In this document: positions 3,802 through 47,884 of the stretch, piece by piece
Numbering within the stretch: position 1 is the first letter of the stretch
Layout: each line of letters opens with the position of its first letter
Source of the DNA: a virus
Reading direction: 5' to 3' (one strand)
Virus record (IMG/VR): IMGVR_UViG_3300047195_000739
Coordinates: 1-47,884 of that record
Length of the DNA stretch: 47,884 nucleotides
Translations under genes and position numbers: made by a program
Notes under the pieces: generated by a model
Database searches by the model: none
The model's input: the letters and a program-made list of their open reading frames with translations, nothing else
Told to the model about the DNA's origin: nothing

Positions 3802-4932
3802 ATGAACGAAATATCGAATACCACTGAACCCCAAATTGCATATAGTGAGTGTTATGCACAGGTTTTTTTTCATCGTTTTCCGTATCGTTGGACTTTAAAA
3901 GATGCCAACTTTACAAAGGATAAAGGCAAAATATTTAGTTGCTTTGCTTGTGGTGGTGGTTCGACAATGGGTTATAAATTAGCTGGTTTTGACGTGATAG
4001 GATGCAATGAAATTGACCCTAAAATGATTGAAGCATACAAAGTAAACCACAACCCGAAATATGCTTTTTTAGAACCAATACAAACTTTTAAAATGCGTGA
4101 AGATTTACCACAGGAACTATATGAGCTGGACATTTTGGACGGTTCGCCACCTTGTAGCAGTTTTTCAATGGCTGGAAATCGTGAAAAAGATTGGGGAAAA
4201 GATAAAGTTTTTAGAGAAGGGCAAGCAATGCAAGTTTTAGATACTTTGTTTTTTGATTTTATTGATTTAGCAAAGAAATTACAGCCTAAAGTTGTGGTTG
4301 CTGAAAACGTAAAAGGATTGCTTTTAGGAGATGCAATACAGTATGTAAGGCAAATATACCGTGAGTTTGATTTGGCTGGTTATTACTGCCAACATTGGCT
4401 TTTAGATGCAAGTAAAATGGGTGTGCCACAAAGGCGTGAACGTGTATTTTTTATTGCATTGCGTAAAGATTTGGCAAAGCCATTTTTAAAGCAAATGAAT
4501 TTGTTTGATATTTTGCCCGAAATAAAACTGGAATTTAATGAAAAAGGCATAAAATACGGTGAAATAGAAGACAAATCGGATTGTACTGAAACGATAACAG
4601 AAACGCAAAAAACACACTGGTTAAGAACAGAAAAAGGACATTGTTTTTCTAAATACCACGAAAAAGGACATTGGTTTAATTCTTATAAAATACAACCAAA
4701 TGAAATTTGCCTGACTATTTTGGCAGGAACTGGAAGTGGAATTTACCATTACGAATTTGCAAGAAAATTAAACACATTGGAATATTCGTATTGTTCGACA
4801 TTCCCAACAGATTACAACTATATGGAAAATAAACCTAAATATCTAATGGGAATGAGTGTTCCGCCTGTAATGATAGCAAACATAGCGACTGAAATTTATT
4901 CCCAATGGCTCTCGAAGTTGGCACGGTCTTAA
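3802..4932 (+). CDS. C5-cytosine DNA methyltransferase, 376 aa
   Basis: The enzyme transfers a methyl group from SAM to C5 of cytosine in DNA. Motifs appear in canonical order: I (IFSCFACGGGSTMGY, with Cys where FxGxGG is usual), IV (DGSPPCSSF, with the catalytic Cys in PPC), VI (VVAENVKG, ENV), VIII (GVPQRRERVFFIAL), then a target-recognition region of about 130 residues, and motif X (VPPVMIANIATEI). The length is normal for a complete orphan methyltransferase. No restriction endonuclease is adjacent, so a protective role against host restriction is likely. It follows an attC-like repeat and is not overlapped by neighbours, unlike most genes here; this suggests later acquisition. Confidence 0.93.
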   Translation: MNEISNTTEPQIAYSECYAQVFFHRFPYRWTLKDANFTKDKGKIFSCFACGGGSTMGYKLAGFDVIGCNEIDPKMIEAYKVNHNPKYAFLEPIQTFKMREDLPQELYELDILDGSPPCSSFSMAGNREKDWGKDKVFREGQAMQVLDTLFFDFIDLAKKLQPKVVVAENVKGLLLGDAIQYVRQIYREFDLAGYYCQHWLLDASKMGVPQRRERVFFIALRKDLAKPFLKQMNLFDILPEIKLEFNEKGIKYGEIEDKSDCTETITETQKTHWLRTEKGHCFSKYHEKGHWFNSYKIQPNEICLTILAGTGSGIYHYEFARKLNTLEYSYCSTFPTDYNYMENKPKYLMGMSVPPVMIANIATEIYSQWLSKLARS

Positions 4933-42354: not shown

Positions 42355-42741
42355 ATGTCATTAATTGAAATAAGTACAAAGTATAACGGCGCTGCCAGAG
42401 ACGTCAATGTCAAGGCAATGAACTGCAAAAAAATTGATCAAAATATTGATCCATTTGTCAAAAAAGTTGCTAACATAATTTATAAGGAAACAGGATACTA
42501 TCCTTTGGCAAGAGTTAAATACAGAGGCAGAAAATATGTTGAAGCAAGACAATTACTTGCAGTATTCCTTTGTAAATATACTAAAGAGATACTTACATCA
42601 GTAGGATTATCATCAGGAGATAAGGATCATGCAACAGTGGTACATTCAAAACATGCAATTCAAAATAGGTTTGATACTGAACCGATATTCCGATCGATGT
42701 ATAAAAGGATTGATAAAAAAGTTAAAAATATACAATTATGA
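42355..42741 (+). CDS. DnaA domain IV-like DNA-binding protein, 128 aa
   Basis: VEARQLLAVFLCKYTKEILT, then SVGLSSGDKDHATVVHSKHA, matches the C-terminal DnaA DNA-binding domain: 'aRq...yL.......s...IG..fg.rdHtTVihav'. The basic loop and the 'DHATV' signature that reads DnaA boxes are present. The AAA+ ATPase is missing, so it cannot load helicase alone. The likely role is to bind an origin or host DnaA boxes. It lies in the early operon, upstream of SSB and the replication initiator. The C-terminus overlaps a 45-aa membrane ORF. Confidence 0.87.
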   Translation: MSLIEISTKYNGAARDVNVKAMNCKKIDQNIDPFVKKVANIIYKETGYYPLARVKYRGRKYVEARQLLAVFLCKYTKEILTSVGLSSGDKDHATVVHSKHAIQNRFDTEPIFRSMYKRIDKKVKNIQL

Positions 42742-43521: not shown

Positions 43522-44079
43522 ATGGATTTACAGATTTTAAACAGACCGTTAACCAGGGAACAGATAGATTTTAAGATTTCTATGGTTACAAAAGGTAATG
43601 ATGCTATCTGGGCTTCGATACTTGCCTATAAAGATGCACGTACAGACATGCAAGTACTAGATGAGGCTTGTGGACAATTCGGATGGATGAATGAATACCA
43701 GAGGGATTCTAAACAGGTCCTACAATGTACTATAAGTATCTGGGATGACTTGAAGATGCAATGGATAAGTAAAACTTCCAATGGCATTGAATCAGATTTT
43801 GAATCAGAGAAAGGTGAATATTCTGATGCATTTAAACGGGCCGGGTTCATGTGGGGAATTGGAAGAAAGTTATATGACTTTCCTGCAATATGGGTACAAT
43901 TATCTGTAGGTGATTATTATGAGAAAGACGGAAAGATTAAAGCATCAGGAAAACTTCGAGTTAATGAATGGAAATGGAATATTTCTGAAGATTATAAAAC
44001 TGTTATCGCTGAAAGAAAATTTAACGGTAAATATGTTGAGATTTATAATTCTAACCCTTATAACAAAAAATCAAAATGA
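43522..44079 (+). CDS. Rad52/Rad22-type single-strand annealing protein, 185 aa
   Basis: The signature EYSDAFKRAGFMWGIGRKLY matches the Rad52/Rad22 phage family ('SDAFKRA..kWGIGRyLYd'). The preceding TISIWDDLKMQWISKTSNGI and QFGWMNEYQRDSKQVLQCTI form the beta sheet that binds single strands. It anneals complementary ssDNA during recombination-dependent repair or replication. Its length of 185 aa is normal. The SSB gene follows directly with a 4-base overlap, a usual partnership. Confidence 0.88.
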   Translation: MDLQILNRPLTREQIDFKISMVTKGNDAIWASILAYKDARTDMQVLDEACGQFGWMNEYQRDSKQVLQCTISIWDDLKMQWISKTSNGIESDFESEKGEYSDAFKRAGFMWGIGRKLYDFPAIWVQLSVGDYYEKDGKIKASGKLRVNEWKWNISEDYKTVIAERKFNGKYVEIYNSNPYNKKSK

Positions 44080-44513
44080 ATCATTGGATAGGACTTGGAA
44101 GGGTAGGTCAAGACCCTGAAGTAAAAGAATTTACAAATAATAAGGTTTGCAAATTTAGTTTGGCCACATCGGAAAGTTATAAAAAGAATGGTGAAAAGGT
44201 TACAGACACCACCTGGCATAATCTCGTATTTTGGGGCAAACAATGTGATATATTGAAAGAATATGTAACAAAGGGGGATCAGTTGCTTGTTGAAGGTAAA
44301 ATAGTTATACGCAATTATACTGATAAATCTGGTGTCGAACATTGGTCCACTGAAATTGTTTGTGATAAATTTGAATTTGTAGGTTCTAAAAAAGAAGGTA
44401 AGCCAGTTGAAAGAAAATCCGGTAAAGTTGAAACCGGATCAATGAGTAATATTGATGAATTACCTGAAGCGAATGAATCTGCAGAAAATGACCCATCATA
44501 CTTTCCGGGATGA
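44076..44513 (+). CDS. ssb: Single-stranded DNA-binding protein, 145 aa
   Basis: The OB fold covers residues 1-108: MNHWIGLGRVGQDPEVKEFT, CKFSLATSESYKKNGEKVTD, TTWHNLVFWGKQCDILKEYV, KGDQLLVEGKIVIRNYTDKS and EIVCDKFEFVG. A flexible acidic tail follows (PEANESAENDPSYFPG). Its end DPSYFPG resembles but does not match the usual DDDIPF tip that binds partner proteins. It coats single-stranded DNA and works with the Rad52-type protein upstream. Confidence 0.95.
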   Translation: MNHWIGLGRVGQDPEVKEFTNNKVCKFSLATSESYKKNGEKVTDTTWHNLVFWGKQCDILKEYVTKGDQLLVEGKIVIRNYTDKSGVEHWSTEIVCDKFEFVGSKKEGKPVERKSGKVETGSMSNIDELPEANESAENDPSYFPG

Positions 44514-44872
44514 AAACATTTCAAATTGCAGCAAATCTAGATAGTTATCGATCAAATTCTAATAAGACAATGAAGTTAGTTTTTGAGACGAATGAATTAA
44601 CTCCTGAAACAATGGCGAATATTCATTATTCACTTTATAAAGCCGGATTCCTTGCTTTTGCTCCAGATCCTTTCAGAACCGAGGAACTTGAGGAGATAGA
44701 TAAATTGAAAGTGGATTTTGAAGATATGCAAAAATCGCCAAGCCAAAGACTAAGGTCTGTTTTATTCATTTTATGGAAACAAAATCCTGAAGGATATAAA
44801 GCATCTAATGATCATTATATTTCAAAAATGGAGACAATAATTGAACATTTTAAAAGTAAGATTGAATCATGA
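44510..44872 (+). CDS. Hypothetical protein downstream of SSB, 120 aa
   Basis: The N-terminal NSNKTMKLVFETNELTPETM and the following GFLAFAPDPFRTEELEEIDK recall a small phage family found after ssb; it may help in recombination. The C-terminal part (QRLRSVLFILWKQNPEGYKA) resembles a helical adaptor. I do not assign a function. It overlaps both neighbours by 4 bases. Confidence 0.72.
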   Translation: MKTFQIAANLDSYRSNSNKTMKLVFETNELTPETMANIHYSLYKAGFLAFAPDPFRTEELEEIDKLKVDFEDMQKSPSQRLRSVLFILWKQNPEGYKASNDHYISKMETIIEHFKSKIES

Positions 44873-45015
44873 TTGAACCTGAAGAAGAAATATTAGAACA
44901 ATGTCCTAATTGTGGTGCAATATGGGGTTGCGAAGAGTTTGATTTTCAATCATGTGATTGTTGTGGTTATCCCGATGTAAATATGGATAATGATTATTTT
45001 GATTATGATAATTAA
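44869..45015 (+). CDS. Small acidic zinc-ribbon-like protein, 48 aa
   Basis: ATG 44869 overlaps the previous stop; the frame ends at 45013-45015. ILEQCPNCGAIWGCEEF has CxxC plus a further Cys, and SCDCCGYPD has another CxxC. The C-terminus is very acidic (DVNMDNDYFDYDN). The four Cys likely bind zinc. The acid tail could mimic DNA. It is shorter than 60 aa but is compactly embedded in the operon. Confidence 0.62.
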   Translation: MIEPEEEILEQCPNCGAIWGCEEFDFQSCDCCGYPDVNMDNDYFDYDN

Positions 45016-45346
45016 GCGTTACAATAAGTACAAAGCTGAAAAGCAAAGTTTCGGGGGGCGAACTTATCATTCCAAAAAAGAGGCAAGTTATGCTATTAAT
45101 CTGGAATGGAAGAAAAAGGCTGGTGAGATAAAAGAAATAATTCCTCAGTATAAGATTGATATTCGTGTTAATGGGAAACATATCACAAGTTATTATATCG
45201 ATTTTAAAGTGATATATACGGACGGACGAATAGAATTGATTGAGGTAAAAGGATTTGCGACGGATGTGTGGCTACTTAAATGGCGATTAACTGAAGCATT
45301 ACTTGAAGAAATTGAGCCAGGAGCAAAACTTGTATTGGTAAAATAA
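45005..45346 (+). CDS. DUF1064 phage endonuclease (PD-(D/E)XK type), 113 aa
   Basis: I use ATG 45005 (MIIKRYNKYKAEKQSF) because the family starts with '.k.nKY.ak'; the ATG at 44990 only adds a hydrophobic stretch. GGRTYHSKKEASYAINLEWK carries the first Glu, and YYIDFKVIYTDGRIELIEVK the Asp and Glu-x-Lys of the PD-(D/E)XK site. DUF1064 proteins are thought to be small nucleases, perhaps junction resolvases. Its size fits the family. It overlaps the zinc-ribbon gene by 11 bases. Confidence 0.86.
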   Translation: MIIKRYNKYKAEKQSFGGRTYHSKKEASYAINLEWKKKAGEIKEIIPQYKIDIRVNGKHITSYYIDFKVIYTDGRIELIEVKGFATDVWLLKWRLTEALLEEIEPGAKLVLVK

Positions 45347-45379
45347 AAGAATTGAAGTAATAATTTAATAACTACAACT

Positions 45380-45424
45380 ATGGCAATTATTCAAAAGTGT
45401 TTACCACCAAGTGACGAAGAATAA
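45380..45424 (+). CDS. Possible 14-aa leader peptide
   Basis: ATG 45380 to TAA 45422-45424 encodes MAIIQKCLPPSDEE, 3 bases before the next start. It is preceded by an A-rich spacer with the same style as other starts here. It may be a small leader or chance. I include it at low confidence because its stop lies so near the downstream ATG. Confidence 0.25.
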   Translation: MAIIQKCLPPSDEE

Positions 45425-45427
45425 AAT

Positions 45428-45679
45428 ATGGGAAAAGATCCTACCGTACTTTTCTATACACAAGACTTCATTACAGGAACGCTTCTAATGACCTATGAGC
45501 AGAAGGGTAAGTATATTACTTTACTTTGCTTACAACAGCAAAATGGCGGACTTTATGAATGTGACATGTTACAAATTTGCGGTGAAAAGGATGAGAAAAT
45601 TTGGACGAAATTTGACTTTGAAAATAAATCGAAAAATGTATTGCCATGTCAAAAATTAAGTTTACTTTTGATACCGTGA
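45428..45679 (+). pseudogene. Truncated replisome-organizer N-terminal domain, 83 aa
   Basis: MGKDPTVLFYTQDFITGTLL, MTYEQKGKYITLLCLQQQNG and LYECDMLQICGEKDEKIWTK match the start of phage replisome-organizer proteins ('kDPAvLFYtsDFltGT..m..eq.GkYi.LLclqhq.G'), which usually run 200 aa or more and continue with '...YYNeRl'. Here the match ends at about residue 62 and the frame stops after an unrelated tail (NVLPCQKLSLLLIP). The region right after its end holds crossing inverted repeats and a GIY-YIG gene, so an insertion may have broken it. A complete initiator gene lies at 46101. Confidence 0.6.
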
Positions 45680-45788
45680 TTAAACTGATTTACATGAATA
45701 GCAGTAAATTCAAATAAACAATATAGACTCCCTTCCTGGGAACTCTTTCGTCATGCGAATCAGTTAATCACACCCCAGGAATCGGAGT
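45676..45788. ncRNA. Pseudoknot-like structured region (two crossing inverted repeats)
   Basis: Repeat A: GTGATTAAACTGATT (45676-45690) is complementary to AATCAGTTAATCAC (45758-45771), 14 pairs with one bulged A. Repeat B: ACTCC+TTCCTGGG (45727-45740) is complementary to CCCAGGAA+GGAGT (45774-45788), 13 pairs with a small internal loop. The right arm of A lies within the loop of B, so the two cross. A small TTCG/CGAA hairpin lies between. The region has no ORF and sits between a truncated gene and a GIY-YIG gene. It could be an RNA pseudoknot, or remnants of a mobile-element end. Confidence 0.5.
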
Positions 45789-45805
45789 TTAAATTTTGTG
45801 TGGTT

Positions 45806-46111
45806 ATGAAAGAATTAAAAGATTTTGAAATCAGTGAATTTGGCAAACCTTCAAGTCCGGGCGTTTATGCAATATGGGTAAGGAATCAATTTTATGAACC
45901 CGGAGAAAACCATTTACTATATATTGGCAGTACAGCTAATCTATACAAAAGACTCAATAGTAATAAGCATTACTATAAAATAACTCTCAATAAATTCAAT
46001 GGTTTAGTGTGGACTTCTTTTATAGAAACTAATGATTACCGAAACCTTGAATATTATCTTATTGGAAAACATAAGCCAATTCTTAATAAACAATTAAATA
46101 ATGGCTTATAG
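45806..46111 (+). CDS. GIY-YIG nuclease-like protein, 101 aa
   Basis: I use ATG 45806 rather than the GTG two codons earlier. SSPGVYAIWVRNQFYEPGEN holds GVY (GIY position) and HLLYIGSTANLYKRLNSNKH holds YIG with the conserved Arg region; NLEYYLIGKHKPILNK has the Glu metal ligand and terminal Asn. The protein is only the catalytic domain, without a NUMOD DNA-binding tail, so it may be a solo nuclease. It overlaps the next start by 11 bases. Its flanks (a truncated gene and crossing repeats) suggest insertion. Confidence 0.85.
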   Translation: MKELKDFEISEFGKPSSPGVYAIWVRNQFYEPGENHLLYIGSTANLYKRLNSNKHYYKITLNKFNGLVWTSFIETNDYRNLEYYLIGKHKPILNKQLNNGL

Positions 46112-46838
46112 ATATTCCAATACTGACAAATGGGGTGATTGTTGGTTTTCTAAATTAAAGCCAATAGAAAAATTACTTTTTAACTATCTTTGTGATAATT
46201 GTGATATTGCCGGATTCATCGAATTAAACCAAAAGAGATGGGCTTCTGATATAGTTACTGAAGTGAGAATAATAGAAGGGGCTTTAAAGGGGCTTAATAG
46301 GGGCTTAATATATTCAAACACAAATGATTGTATTTTCATCCGTAATTATTTGAAACATCAAAAAAACTTGCCTTTAGACCCCATAAAAAACCCTGCGCAT
46401 AAAGGAATAATAAAGCGGTTTGAATTATATTCTTTTAAGTTTAATATCAAAGATATAAATGAATTTATTGAAGGGGCTTGCAAGGGGCTTAGTACCCCCT
46501 TAGGTAATGCTATTGGTAATGGTAATGGTAATGGTAATGATTTAGGTAAAGAAAAAGAGGAGAAAGAAAATTTATTAAAGAAAAAAGAAATTGTATTTAA
46601 GAGTGAAGTTTTTGAATTTTCTGAAAAGTACAATGAAGAAATGTTAAATAAGTTTTGTAATTACTGGACTGAAAAAAATAAATCACTTACTAAAATGCGT
46701 TTTGAACTTGAAAAAATATTTGAAATTTCAAAACGAATTGCGACCTGGGCGGCACGTGATAATGAATATAATAAAAGTAAACAGAATAATGATAGTGTAT
46801 TTGCTAAATTTGGAGTAAAACAAAATGGAAAACGATAG
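46101..46838 (+). CDS. Replisome organizer / DnaD-like replication initiator, 245 aa
   Basis: The N-terminal RYSNTDKWGDCWFSKLKPIE, KLLFNYLCDNCDIAGFIELN and RIIEGALKGLNRGLIYSNTN are a winged-helix domain of the phage replisome-organizer type ('W.D.....L.p.eKll..YLltn....GiYe'). A (Gly-Asn)n linker and a Lys/Glu-rich stretch follow (about 139-165), then a helical C-terminal domain (YNEEMLNKFCNYWTEKNKSL) ending KNGKR. It should bind the origin and recruit helicase. Its own coding DNA holds iteron-like repeats (see 46277-46538), as the lambda O gene does. The next gene overlaps by 14 bases. Confidence 0.84.
   Translation: MAYRYSNTDKWGDCWFSKLKPIEKLLFNYLCDNCDIAGFIELNQKRWASDIVTEVRIIEGALKGLNRGLIYSNTNDCIFIRNYLKHQKNLPLDPIKNPAHKGIIKRFELYSFKFNIKDINEFIEGACKGLSTPLGNAIGNGNGNGNDLGKEKEEKENLLKKKEIVFKSEVFEFSEKYNEEMLNKFCNYWTEKNKSLTKMRFELEKIFEISKRIATWAARDNEYNKSKQNNDSVFAKFGVKQNGKR
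46277..46538. repeat. Iteron-like repeats inside the initiator gene (candidate replication origin)
   Basis: AGGGGCTT occurs at 46277-46284, 46288-46295, 46299-46306, 46472-46479 and 46483-46490. Within each group the spacing is exactly 11 bp. Because 11 is not a multiple of 3, the first three copies are read in three frames, so the repeat is a DNA-level signal and not a protein repeat. After the last copy come an AAGGGG/CCCCTT palindrome (46482-46499), four tandem GGTAAT units (46515-46538) and a long A-rich stretch (to about 46605). Iterons followed by A/T-rich DNA within an initiator gene is the lambda-type origin layout. Confidence 0.62.
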
Positions 46839-47361
46839 TAAATTTCAGACGTATGCAAATGAATTGGTAAGAAATGTACCAATGGAAAATTTACAATATC
46901 TTATTGCATTATTTATGCAAGAGGCGGCTATTAACATGGGAAGCGAAGTGAGTGAAAAGACACTTGAAAGGACAATTTACTATATTCAAAAGGATTTTAG
47001 TTATATTCCTGTCAATTATATTGCATCAGCTTTCATACGTGGATCACTTGGTAAATTTGGTAAAGAAGGTGCTGGCCGGTTGGTGCCAAAAACTATTCAT
47101 GCATGGCTGGGTGAAATAAGTCTTGATTATAATCAGGCAATATCAAAGGAAAAGATTAAGGCAAGACAGATGGATGTTGGTATAGCAATGGATCTGCATA
47201 AATACCCAGTTGGTAGTGCTATTAGTAAGAAGATTGAATGGTACAGGAAAGGATTGATAGATGGGGATGACTGGGATCAAATACCGCTTAAAGAACTTGC
47301 TGAGATGATTGGCAGGGGTGGTTATCCTTTGCCTTCACATTTTGGAATTGAAACAAAATAA
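46825..47361 (+). CDS. Putative replication accessory protein, 178 aa
   Basis: This helical soluble protein has YANELVRNVPMENLQYLIAL, TLERTIYYIQKDFSYIPVNY, and an aromatic, Gly-rich motif (SAFIRGSLGKFGKEGAGRLV, PKTIHAWLGEISLDYNQ). The pattern recurs next to replication initiators in Bacteroidota phages. The position after the replisome organizer suggests a helicase loader or partner, but there is no Walker A motif. Function unproved. It overlaps the initiator by 14 bases. Confidence 0.72.
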   Translation: MENDSKFQTYANELVRNVPMENLQYLIALFMQEAAINMGSEVSEKTLERTIYYIQKDFSYIPVNYIASAFIRGSLGKFGKEGAGRLVPKTIHAWLGEISLDYNQAISKEKIKARQMDVGIAMDLHKYPVGSAISKKIEWYRKGLIDGDDWDQIPLKELAEMIGRGGYPLPSHFGIETK

Positions 47362-47370
47362 GTAAAACTA

Positions 47371-47706
47371 ATGAAAACAATTAAAGAGATTGAATTAGAA
47401 ATTATTGAAATTGGAAAATCAATGAAGGATTTAGATTCTAAAAGGGCAATTAATACAGAATCTAGAAAAATTGAGATTTTGAGACAATGTAAATTATACC
47501 TTGAAACAAATCCCAAACCGGAATTTATTGAAGAGATGAAATCTTCTGTTGAGTTTCGAATTGATTTAATAAGGGAAAGATATGGCGCATGGTGTGCTTG
47601 TAGAAATTTAAGTCAATTTAAAAATCCATTACATCATTATTATAATGAAATGGGAATGGCTCAATTGAAATTACAATTAAAAACATTAGAATATTTAATT
47701 AATTAA
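47371..47706 (+). CDS. Hypothetical coiled protein, 111 aa
   Basis: The protein is almost all helix: TIKEIELEIIEIGKSMKDLD, SRKIEILRQCKLYLETNPKP, EFIEEMKSSVEFRIDLIRER, then a WCACRNLSQFKNPLHHYYNE loop and a C-terminal helix. It may be a coiled adaptor. Function unknown. It is followed after 3 bases by the gene that crosses the contig end. Confidence 0.68.
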   Translation: MKTIKEIELEIIEIGKSMKDLDSKRAINTESRKIEILRQCKLYLETNPKPEFIEEMKSSVEFRIDLIRERYGAWCACRNLSQFKNPLHHYYNEMGMAQLKLQLKTLEYLIN

Positions 47707-47709
47707 TCA

Positions 47710-47884
47710 ATGGAATCACAAAATAAAGCAATTGCTAAACATCTTAATGAGGGGAATACAATAACGCCTCTGGAAGCATTAAACTTATTTGGGTGCTTTA
47801 GATTATCAGCCAGGATTTACGATTTAAGAAAACTTGGGCTTGCAATTGAAGAAAGGGCTTTTGTTACTCATACAAATAAACGGG
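47710..47884 (+). CDS. Helix-turn-helix protein, 5' part (crosses the contig end)
   Basis: ATG 47710 starts MESQNKAIAKHLNEGNTITP and runs off the contig in frame. Its last 127 bases are the same as the first 127 of the window, and reading on from base 128 of the window gives the full 72-aa helix-turn-helix protein (see 1-171). It closes the circle between the replication operon and the next block. Confidence 0.85.
   Translation, partial: MESQNKAIAKHLNEGNTITPLEALNLFGCFRLSARIYDLRKLGLAIEERAFVTHTNKR
47758..47884. repeat. Terminal direct repeat, right copy (circular overlap)
   Basis: This is the identical partner of bases 1-127. It lies inside the helix-turn-helix gene, so a real terminal repeat here would have to cut a gene, which again favours an assembly overlap on a circular or permuted genome. 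Confidence 0.93.

Follow-up and report, generated by a model that had tools for sequence, protein, structure and literature searches.

The window analysed here is the whole of a linear virus record of 47,884 nucleotides, which carries at 46101..46838 on the plus strand an open reading frame (ORF) encoding a putative replication initiator of 245 amino acids, built from an N-terminal winged helix, a low-complexity linker and an exchangeable C-terminal domain. The region coding for the predicted winged helix (46122..46361, plus strand; residues 8-87) was delimited from an AlphaFold model and comparison with PDB structures, with predicted elements α1 (21-33), α2 (44-50), α3 (55-64) and wing strands at 69-71 and 77-80. 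AlphaFold models of 15 relatives give a winged helix with pLDDT of about 90 in the core, after which the linker is disordered and the C-terminus poorly predicted. Comparison of the fold returns generic winged helices, where the RepA_N structures 4pta, 4pt7 and 5kbj score Z 5.7-5.9 (residues 8-132) against Z 6.7 for CRP wings, such that RepA_N is not separable from other winged helices. The protein has no Pfam match, and its N-terminus matches PHROG phage replication initiation families weakly (E 0.009-0.43, the best being 0.009), while its C-terminus (46540-46838) matches phrog_19415, a family of unknown function. This C-terminal domain is common to proteins of Cellulophaga, Flavobacterium 11b and Bacteroides phages, and we regard it as an exchangeable module because the N-termini are unrelated in Cellulophaga phi19:3 and 11b.

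The genes around the ORF encode a single-stranded DNA binding protein (SSB), a Rad52/Erf-like annealing protein, a DUF1064 resolvase-like protein and a DnaA-domain-IV-like protein (Bac_DnaA_C, Pfam E 6e-8) at 42355-42741, 3.4 kb upstream of the initiator, and together form a typical phage replication and recombination neighbourhood. A small DnaA-domain-IV-like protein is also encoded near the initiator in L004 (5326-5979), L127 (near 3874-4100) and L137 (near 4344), and these proteins of the relatives have the signature GRDHATV. Downstream lies an ORF of 178 amino acids (46825-47361) that has no family match; its counterparts in L126 (44%) and L125 (24%) immediately follow the initiator, and its product is a candidate helicase-loader partner. 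No Rfam family was found in 44000-47884, and a nucleotide search of the region against phages returned mostly short, low-scoring matches, several of them at the simple GGTAAT repeat.

Within the initiator ORF, five exact copies of the 8-mer AGGGGCTT start at 46277, 46288, 46299, 46472 and 46483, in two groups whose members are separated by 11-bp steps, as a preliminary description of the sequence had it. The word is absent elsewhere in the window on both strands (expected count 0.96; none of 100 shuffles reached five). Relative to the ATG at 46101, the copies lie at offsets 176, 187, 198, 371 and 382, and therefore the three members of group 1 fall in three different reading frames. When the ORF was shuffled synonymously, preserving the protein and its codon usage (n = 20,000), AGGGGCTT was found no more than three times in any shuffle, and the number of identical 8-mers at 11-bp spacing, nine in the real ORF, never exceeded five. 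On the same count of identical 8-mers, with all non-codon spacings tested, every other 500-bp stretch of the window scores two or less. Group 1 (46276..46308, plus strand) comprises three 11-bp units, AAGGGGCTTTA, AAGGGGCTTAA and TAGGGGCTTAA, and codes for residues 59-69, with Tandem Repeats Finder (TRF) reporting an 11-bp array at 46277-46310. Group 2 (46471..46492, plus strand) comprises two units, AAGGGGCTTGC and AAGGGGCTTAG, at the start of the linker, the groups lying 195 bp apart. Residues 59-69 correspond to the end of predicted helix α3 and the turn that follows it, and if α3 is the recognition helix, the binding site would encode part of its own reader.

Group 2 is followed by what had been described as a palindrome, and its arms are present as AAGGGG (46482-46487) and CCCCTT (46496-46501). 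Alignment with relatives revises its identity: L125 and L127 show it as an inverted third iteron copy, AAGCCCCTATG, and aligned relatives have AAGCCCC at this place, so that TACCCCCTTAG in the window phage (46493..46503, minus strand) is best described as a degenerate inverted third unit of group 2, the sixth copy overall. Adjoining this unit, TRF reports a 6-bp (GGTAAT)n array (46503..46539, plus strand) that codes for a Gly-Asn linker and includes four consecutive exact copies at 46515-46538, matching the (GGTAAT)4 previously noted. The A-rich tract said to follow the repeats is likewise present as an A-rich, purine-rich stretch (46535..46609, plus strand), which on its composition is a candidate unwinding element: at 46535-46594 the AT content is 80% and the purine content 77%, values that rank within the top 3% and the top 0.3% of 60-bp windows, respectively. 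The GC skew is positive over the entire record, nearly all genes of which are on the plus strand, and is uninformative on the position of an origin.

As loci selected by the motif would be biased by circularity, relatives were retrieved with residues 1-54 only, which lie upstream of every repeat (alignment A1, the seeds of which were motif-positive). This search gave 47 loci from IMG/VR and GTDB genomes, Bacteroidota metagenome-assembled genomes (MAGs) among them, while scans A2 and A3 contributed near-identical isolates and few additional independent genes. The relatives found in this way, without use of the repeats, keep both the repeats and their phasing. In the closer relatives the copies stand at matching offsets (176/187/198 and about 368/379), and an inverted unit ends group 2 where the window phage has the degenerate palindrome. 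The comparison of synonymous sites that the preliminary description had called for was made over conserved amino acids in four- and six-fold degenerate columns of 19 non-redundant relatives, where the modal codon accounts for a fraction of 0.88 in the iterons versus 0.47 elsewhere (p = 1.4e-5). GGG dominates the glycine codons of the iterons, though it makes up 14% of glycine codons in the window phage. Synonymous sites are thus nearly frozen exactly at the iterons, and together with the three reading frames of group 1 this bears out the proposal that conservation acts on the DNA; judged from these alignments, selection on the repeats is at the DNA level. The reading of the repeats as a candidate origin is supported by these sequence comparisons, with the word origin used in an interpretive sense.

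The position and orientation of the groups differ among phages. In many of them group 2 runs in the opposite orientation to the gene, group 1 is lost in L134 and L136, and in L020 and L101 group 1 lies near the gene start, in a region coding 'PFIRGLQGAYKLL'. In the subfamily with MAKRFTDTEKW (L020, L050, L063 and L101), group 1 is found at an offset of about 57-104 in the open frame rather than at α3, so that the same DNA word occupies another part of the domain. Among close relatives, the N-terminus and the iterons stay together and C-termini are freely exchanged (alignment A4). L004, the nearest match to the C-terminus (62% there), has an unrelated N-terminus and another 11-bp word, AAGCAAA. 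On the reverse strand of L090, near 10923 and 11358, AAGGGGCTT units form direct and inverted arrays in a place that no ORF covers; they may be a free-standing origin or a decoy of the AAGGGGCTT iteron type.

A pattern search of IMG/VR found at least 120 contigs with an 11-bp phased pair, and among the 120 listed, a further copy lies 80-350 bp away in 81, compared with 19 of the 120 listed for a 12-bp control (at least 120 contigs) and 3 of the 28 contigs of a reversed control. The raw count of the 11-bp pattern was rejected as proof, since the reversed control gives 28 contigs but the 12-bp control also reaches at least 120; the 12-bp matches read mostly as codon-periodic repeats and seldom have a second group. 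The case therefore rests on the architecture and the synonymous sites, not on raw counts.

How general the 11-bp step is was assessed in 57 non-redundant initiator genes, retrieved by their N-terminal domain or by tblastn and not phylogenetically independent. In 37 of them, 11-bp repeats exceed what synonymous shuffling produces; the same holds for 2 of 147 neighbouring genes. Repeats at 22 bp occur in 16 of the 57 and other spacings in 5% or less; the 20 genes that fail the 11-bp test include L180 and L181, which share only the C-terminus. The words vary among phages (AAGGGGCTT, AAGGGGG, AAGGGTAT, AAAGGGTT, AAACCCTATC, ACGAATCGT, ACGATACGT and ATACGGTAT) and the 11-bp step is constant, with AAGGGGCTT conserved in phages of 30-68% GC. 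Where divergent words occur in two groups, the groups often match each other, both being altered together in L137 (AAGGGGG), L170 (AGGGGCTA/G) and L183 (AAAGGGTT), as is expected if one protein reads both. Across 73 motif-bearing ORFs, the coding strand downstream of the last iteron is unusually rich in purines (mean rank within the ORF 0.91), irrespective of the GC content of the genome, and the linkers are of the types GNGNGN, KDKDKD, QEQEQE or MDMDMD. The purine-rich stretch may be an unwinding feature, or may just reflect charged linkers, which partly explain it. Downstream AT-richness was also considered as a general feature and is unsupported across GC (mean rank 0.59). As IMG/VR contigs lack host names, the range across phyla is drawn from named phages and MAGs; by their sequences, the same design is one that recurs in related initiator genes of viruses of very different bacteria, including one virus whose origin has been mapped by experiment.

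Named phages place these genes in a replication context. In E. coli phage PhiR5_2 the gene order is cI-cro-cII-x-initiator homologue-dnaC, and the homologue, annotated 'DNA replication protein O', carries the AAGGGGCTT word with group 2 inverted. The homologue in Geobacillus E2 is a replication protein encoded before a DnaB-like helicase gene. L183 is Klebsiella phage ST13-OXA48phi12.4, with a ParB/RepB-like gene immediately preceding the AAAGGGTT-iteron initiator and dnaC downstream of it. In Lactococcus phage Tuc2009, rep (orf16) is annotated 'contains origin of replication' and has CAACCA at 341/352/363/374, exactly 11 bp apart (p = 0.007), and the experimentally identified rep of TP901-1 gives a weak 11-bp signal (p = 0.03).

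Iteron origins embedded in an initiator gene are already known as a kind, from lambda O, Tuc2009 rep and plasmid RepA_N. The likeness to the lambda origin proposed earlier holds at the level of logic: in lambda O and ori-lambda (also in Stx phages) the iterons likewise occupy the central part of the initiator gene and adjoin an AT-rich tract, as those of the window phage lie in its initiator gene next to a low-complexity tract, and the lambda gene lies after cII and before the loader gene, as in PhiR5_2-type phages. As also anticipated, repeat and protein differ. Lambda has a single group of four annotated 18-bp iterons at spacings of 20-24 bp, with 20 and 23 bp obtained for lambda O in the repeat comparison, whereas the window phage has 9-bp cores at 11 bp in two groups, and no sequence match of the window protein to lambda O was found among the Pfam and weak PHROG comparisons given above. 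The bind locus of plasmid pMV158 is a plasmid origin with 11-bp direct repeats, although its RepB is a rolling-circle initiator of a class unrelated to the window protein.

Tuc2009 rep offers a closer precedent than lambda does. The Rep proteins of Tuc2009 and TP901-1 bind direct repeats in their own genes, and these repeats serve as ori (PMC8965321). Like the window phage, Tuc2009 Rep2009 (orf16) has a direct-repeat origin in the initiator gene with 11-bp steps and a low-complexity linker following it; it differs in its motif and in the single group found, while the TP901-1 repeats differ in having no clear 11-bp phase. The C-terminal DnaD/DnaB_2 domain of the Tuc2009-like type was not found in the window protein, which has no Pfam match; another iteron carrier, the L041 type, has DnaB_2 (PF07261). 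In RepA_N plasmids such as pSK41 and pTZ2162, an N-terminal winged helix-turn-helix (wHTH) domain binds Rep boxes in the middle of rep, the ori encodes the linker, and the C-terminal domain differs from genus to genus (PMC5703833); pPR9 is a chimera that has a phage-type N-terminal domain. The window phage shares this plan of conserved N-terminus, candidate origin in the central linker and exchangeable C-terminus; the RepA_N domain PF06970 gave no match in its protein at E 0.1, and RepA_N Rep boxes are semi-palindromic around poly-A (PMC7145576). In SPP1, the origin-binding protein gp38 binds direct repeats within gene 38 (oriL), adjoining an AT-rich element (PMC6316719), and this published description resembles the window phage in its repeats within the initiator gene.

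On comparative sequence evidence, we consider it probable that a tailed phage of the Bacteroidota type starts its replication at this array, an origin that lies within the gene of its own initiator and is bound by the winged helix of the protein encoded there. In this mechanism, the N-terminal winged-helix domain of the 46101 product would bind AAGGGGCTTnn units, one per helical turn, so that the bound copies would stack along one face of the DNA in each group. Group 1, with its three units, would possibly be bridged to group 2, which has two units and an inverted one, and the complex would open the adjoining GGTAAT and A-rich purine tract (46503-46609), with the exchangeable C-terminal domain recruiting a helicase loader or helicase. 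The alignments display DNA-level selection, a constant 11-bp phase, a motif travelling with the N-terminal domain and changes shared between groups; from this pattern we infer protein binding, unwinding, helicase loading and origin firing.

The same repeats could be read in other ways. That they merely encode the peptide EGAxKGL, selected at the protein level, draws on the fact that both groups encode EGA(L/C)KGL in the window phage, yet 11 bp is not a multiple of the codon, group 1 spans three reading frames, synonymous codons are nearly fixed at the iterons and the inverted group 2 of other phages encodes KPLxSP instead. The inversion of group 2 and the relocation of group 1 mean that the peptide cannot explain the repeats, and with the synonymous-codon constraint the inversion refutes this explanation, to which we give virtually no weight. 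Binding by another factor, such as the phage DnaA-domain-IV-like protein (42355-42741) or a host protein, appears very improbable. Such a protein is encoded 3.4 kb upstream, and DnaA-like signatures stand next to the initiator in L004, L127 and L137, but most relatives with the same iteron have no DnaA-like gene in the stretch examined, the annotated genes around the PhiR5_2 initiator include none, AGGGGCTT is unlike a DnaA box, and the motif accompanies the initiator N-terminal domain across phages of differing GC.

Plasmid iterons commonly serve both replication and autoregulation or copy control, and the sites of the wHTH protein could act in the latter roles, as a transcription roadblock or by handcuffing, with replication starting elsewhere and no opening at the array. 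All sequence evidence for a protein-binding site fits this reading equally. However, two groups deep in the gene and an adjoining low-complexity tract favour an origin, the window holds no repeat array of equal strength elsewhere, and the in-gene rep repeats of Tuc2009 and TP901-1 are the ori (PMC8965321), so that purely regulatory sites seem unlikely, if less so than binding by another factor.

Beyond this locus, we tentatively propose, at somewhat less than even confidence, that the origins embedded in genes of wHTH phage initiators, in several bacterial phyla, share a single 11-bp code in which each turn of the helix holds one site and the 9-bp words drift. In the AGGGGCTT subfamilies, group 1 would encode part of the reading helix of the protein, such that site and domain share one constraint and move as a cassette while the C-termini swap. 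Literature searches, which covered few subscription papers and are weak evidence of novelty, returned no description of AAGGGGCTT iterons or of an 11-bp rule for phage initiators, and neither the broad 11-bp rule nor a group 1 coding for part of the putative recognition helix seems to have been reported in the accessible literature.

To our knowledge, the origins of most metagenomic phages are unknown, and a fixed 11-bp phase in a recognisable wHTH gene offers a simple reader by which origin, initiator and iteron word are found together. The same 11-bp reader also predicts incompatibility groups and phage-encoded-resistance decoys. That AAGGGGCTT is retained at 30-68% GC illustrates how far a site of this kind can prevail over codon usage. 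Because group 1 overlaps codons of the putative recognition helix, the co-evolution of protein and site can be tested directly in one 700-bp gene.
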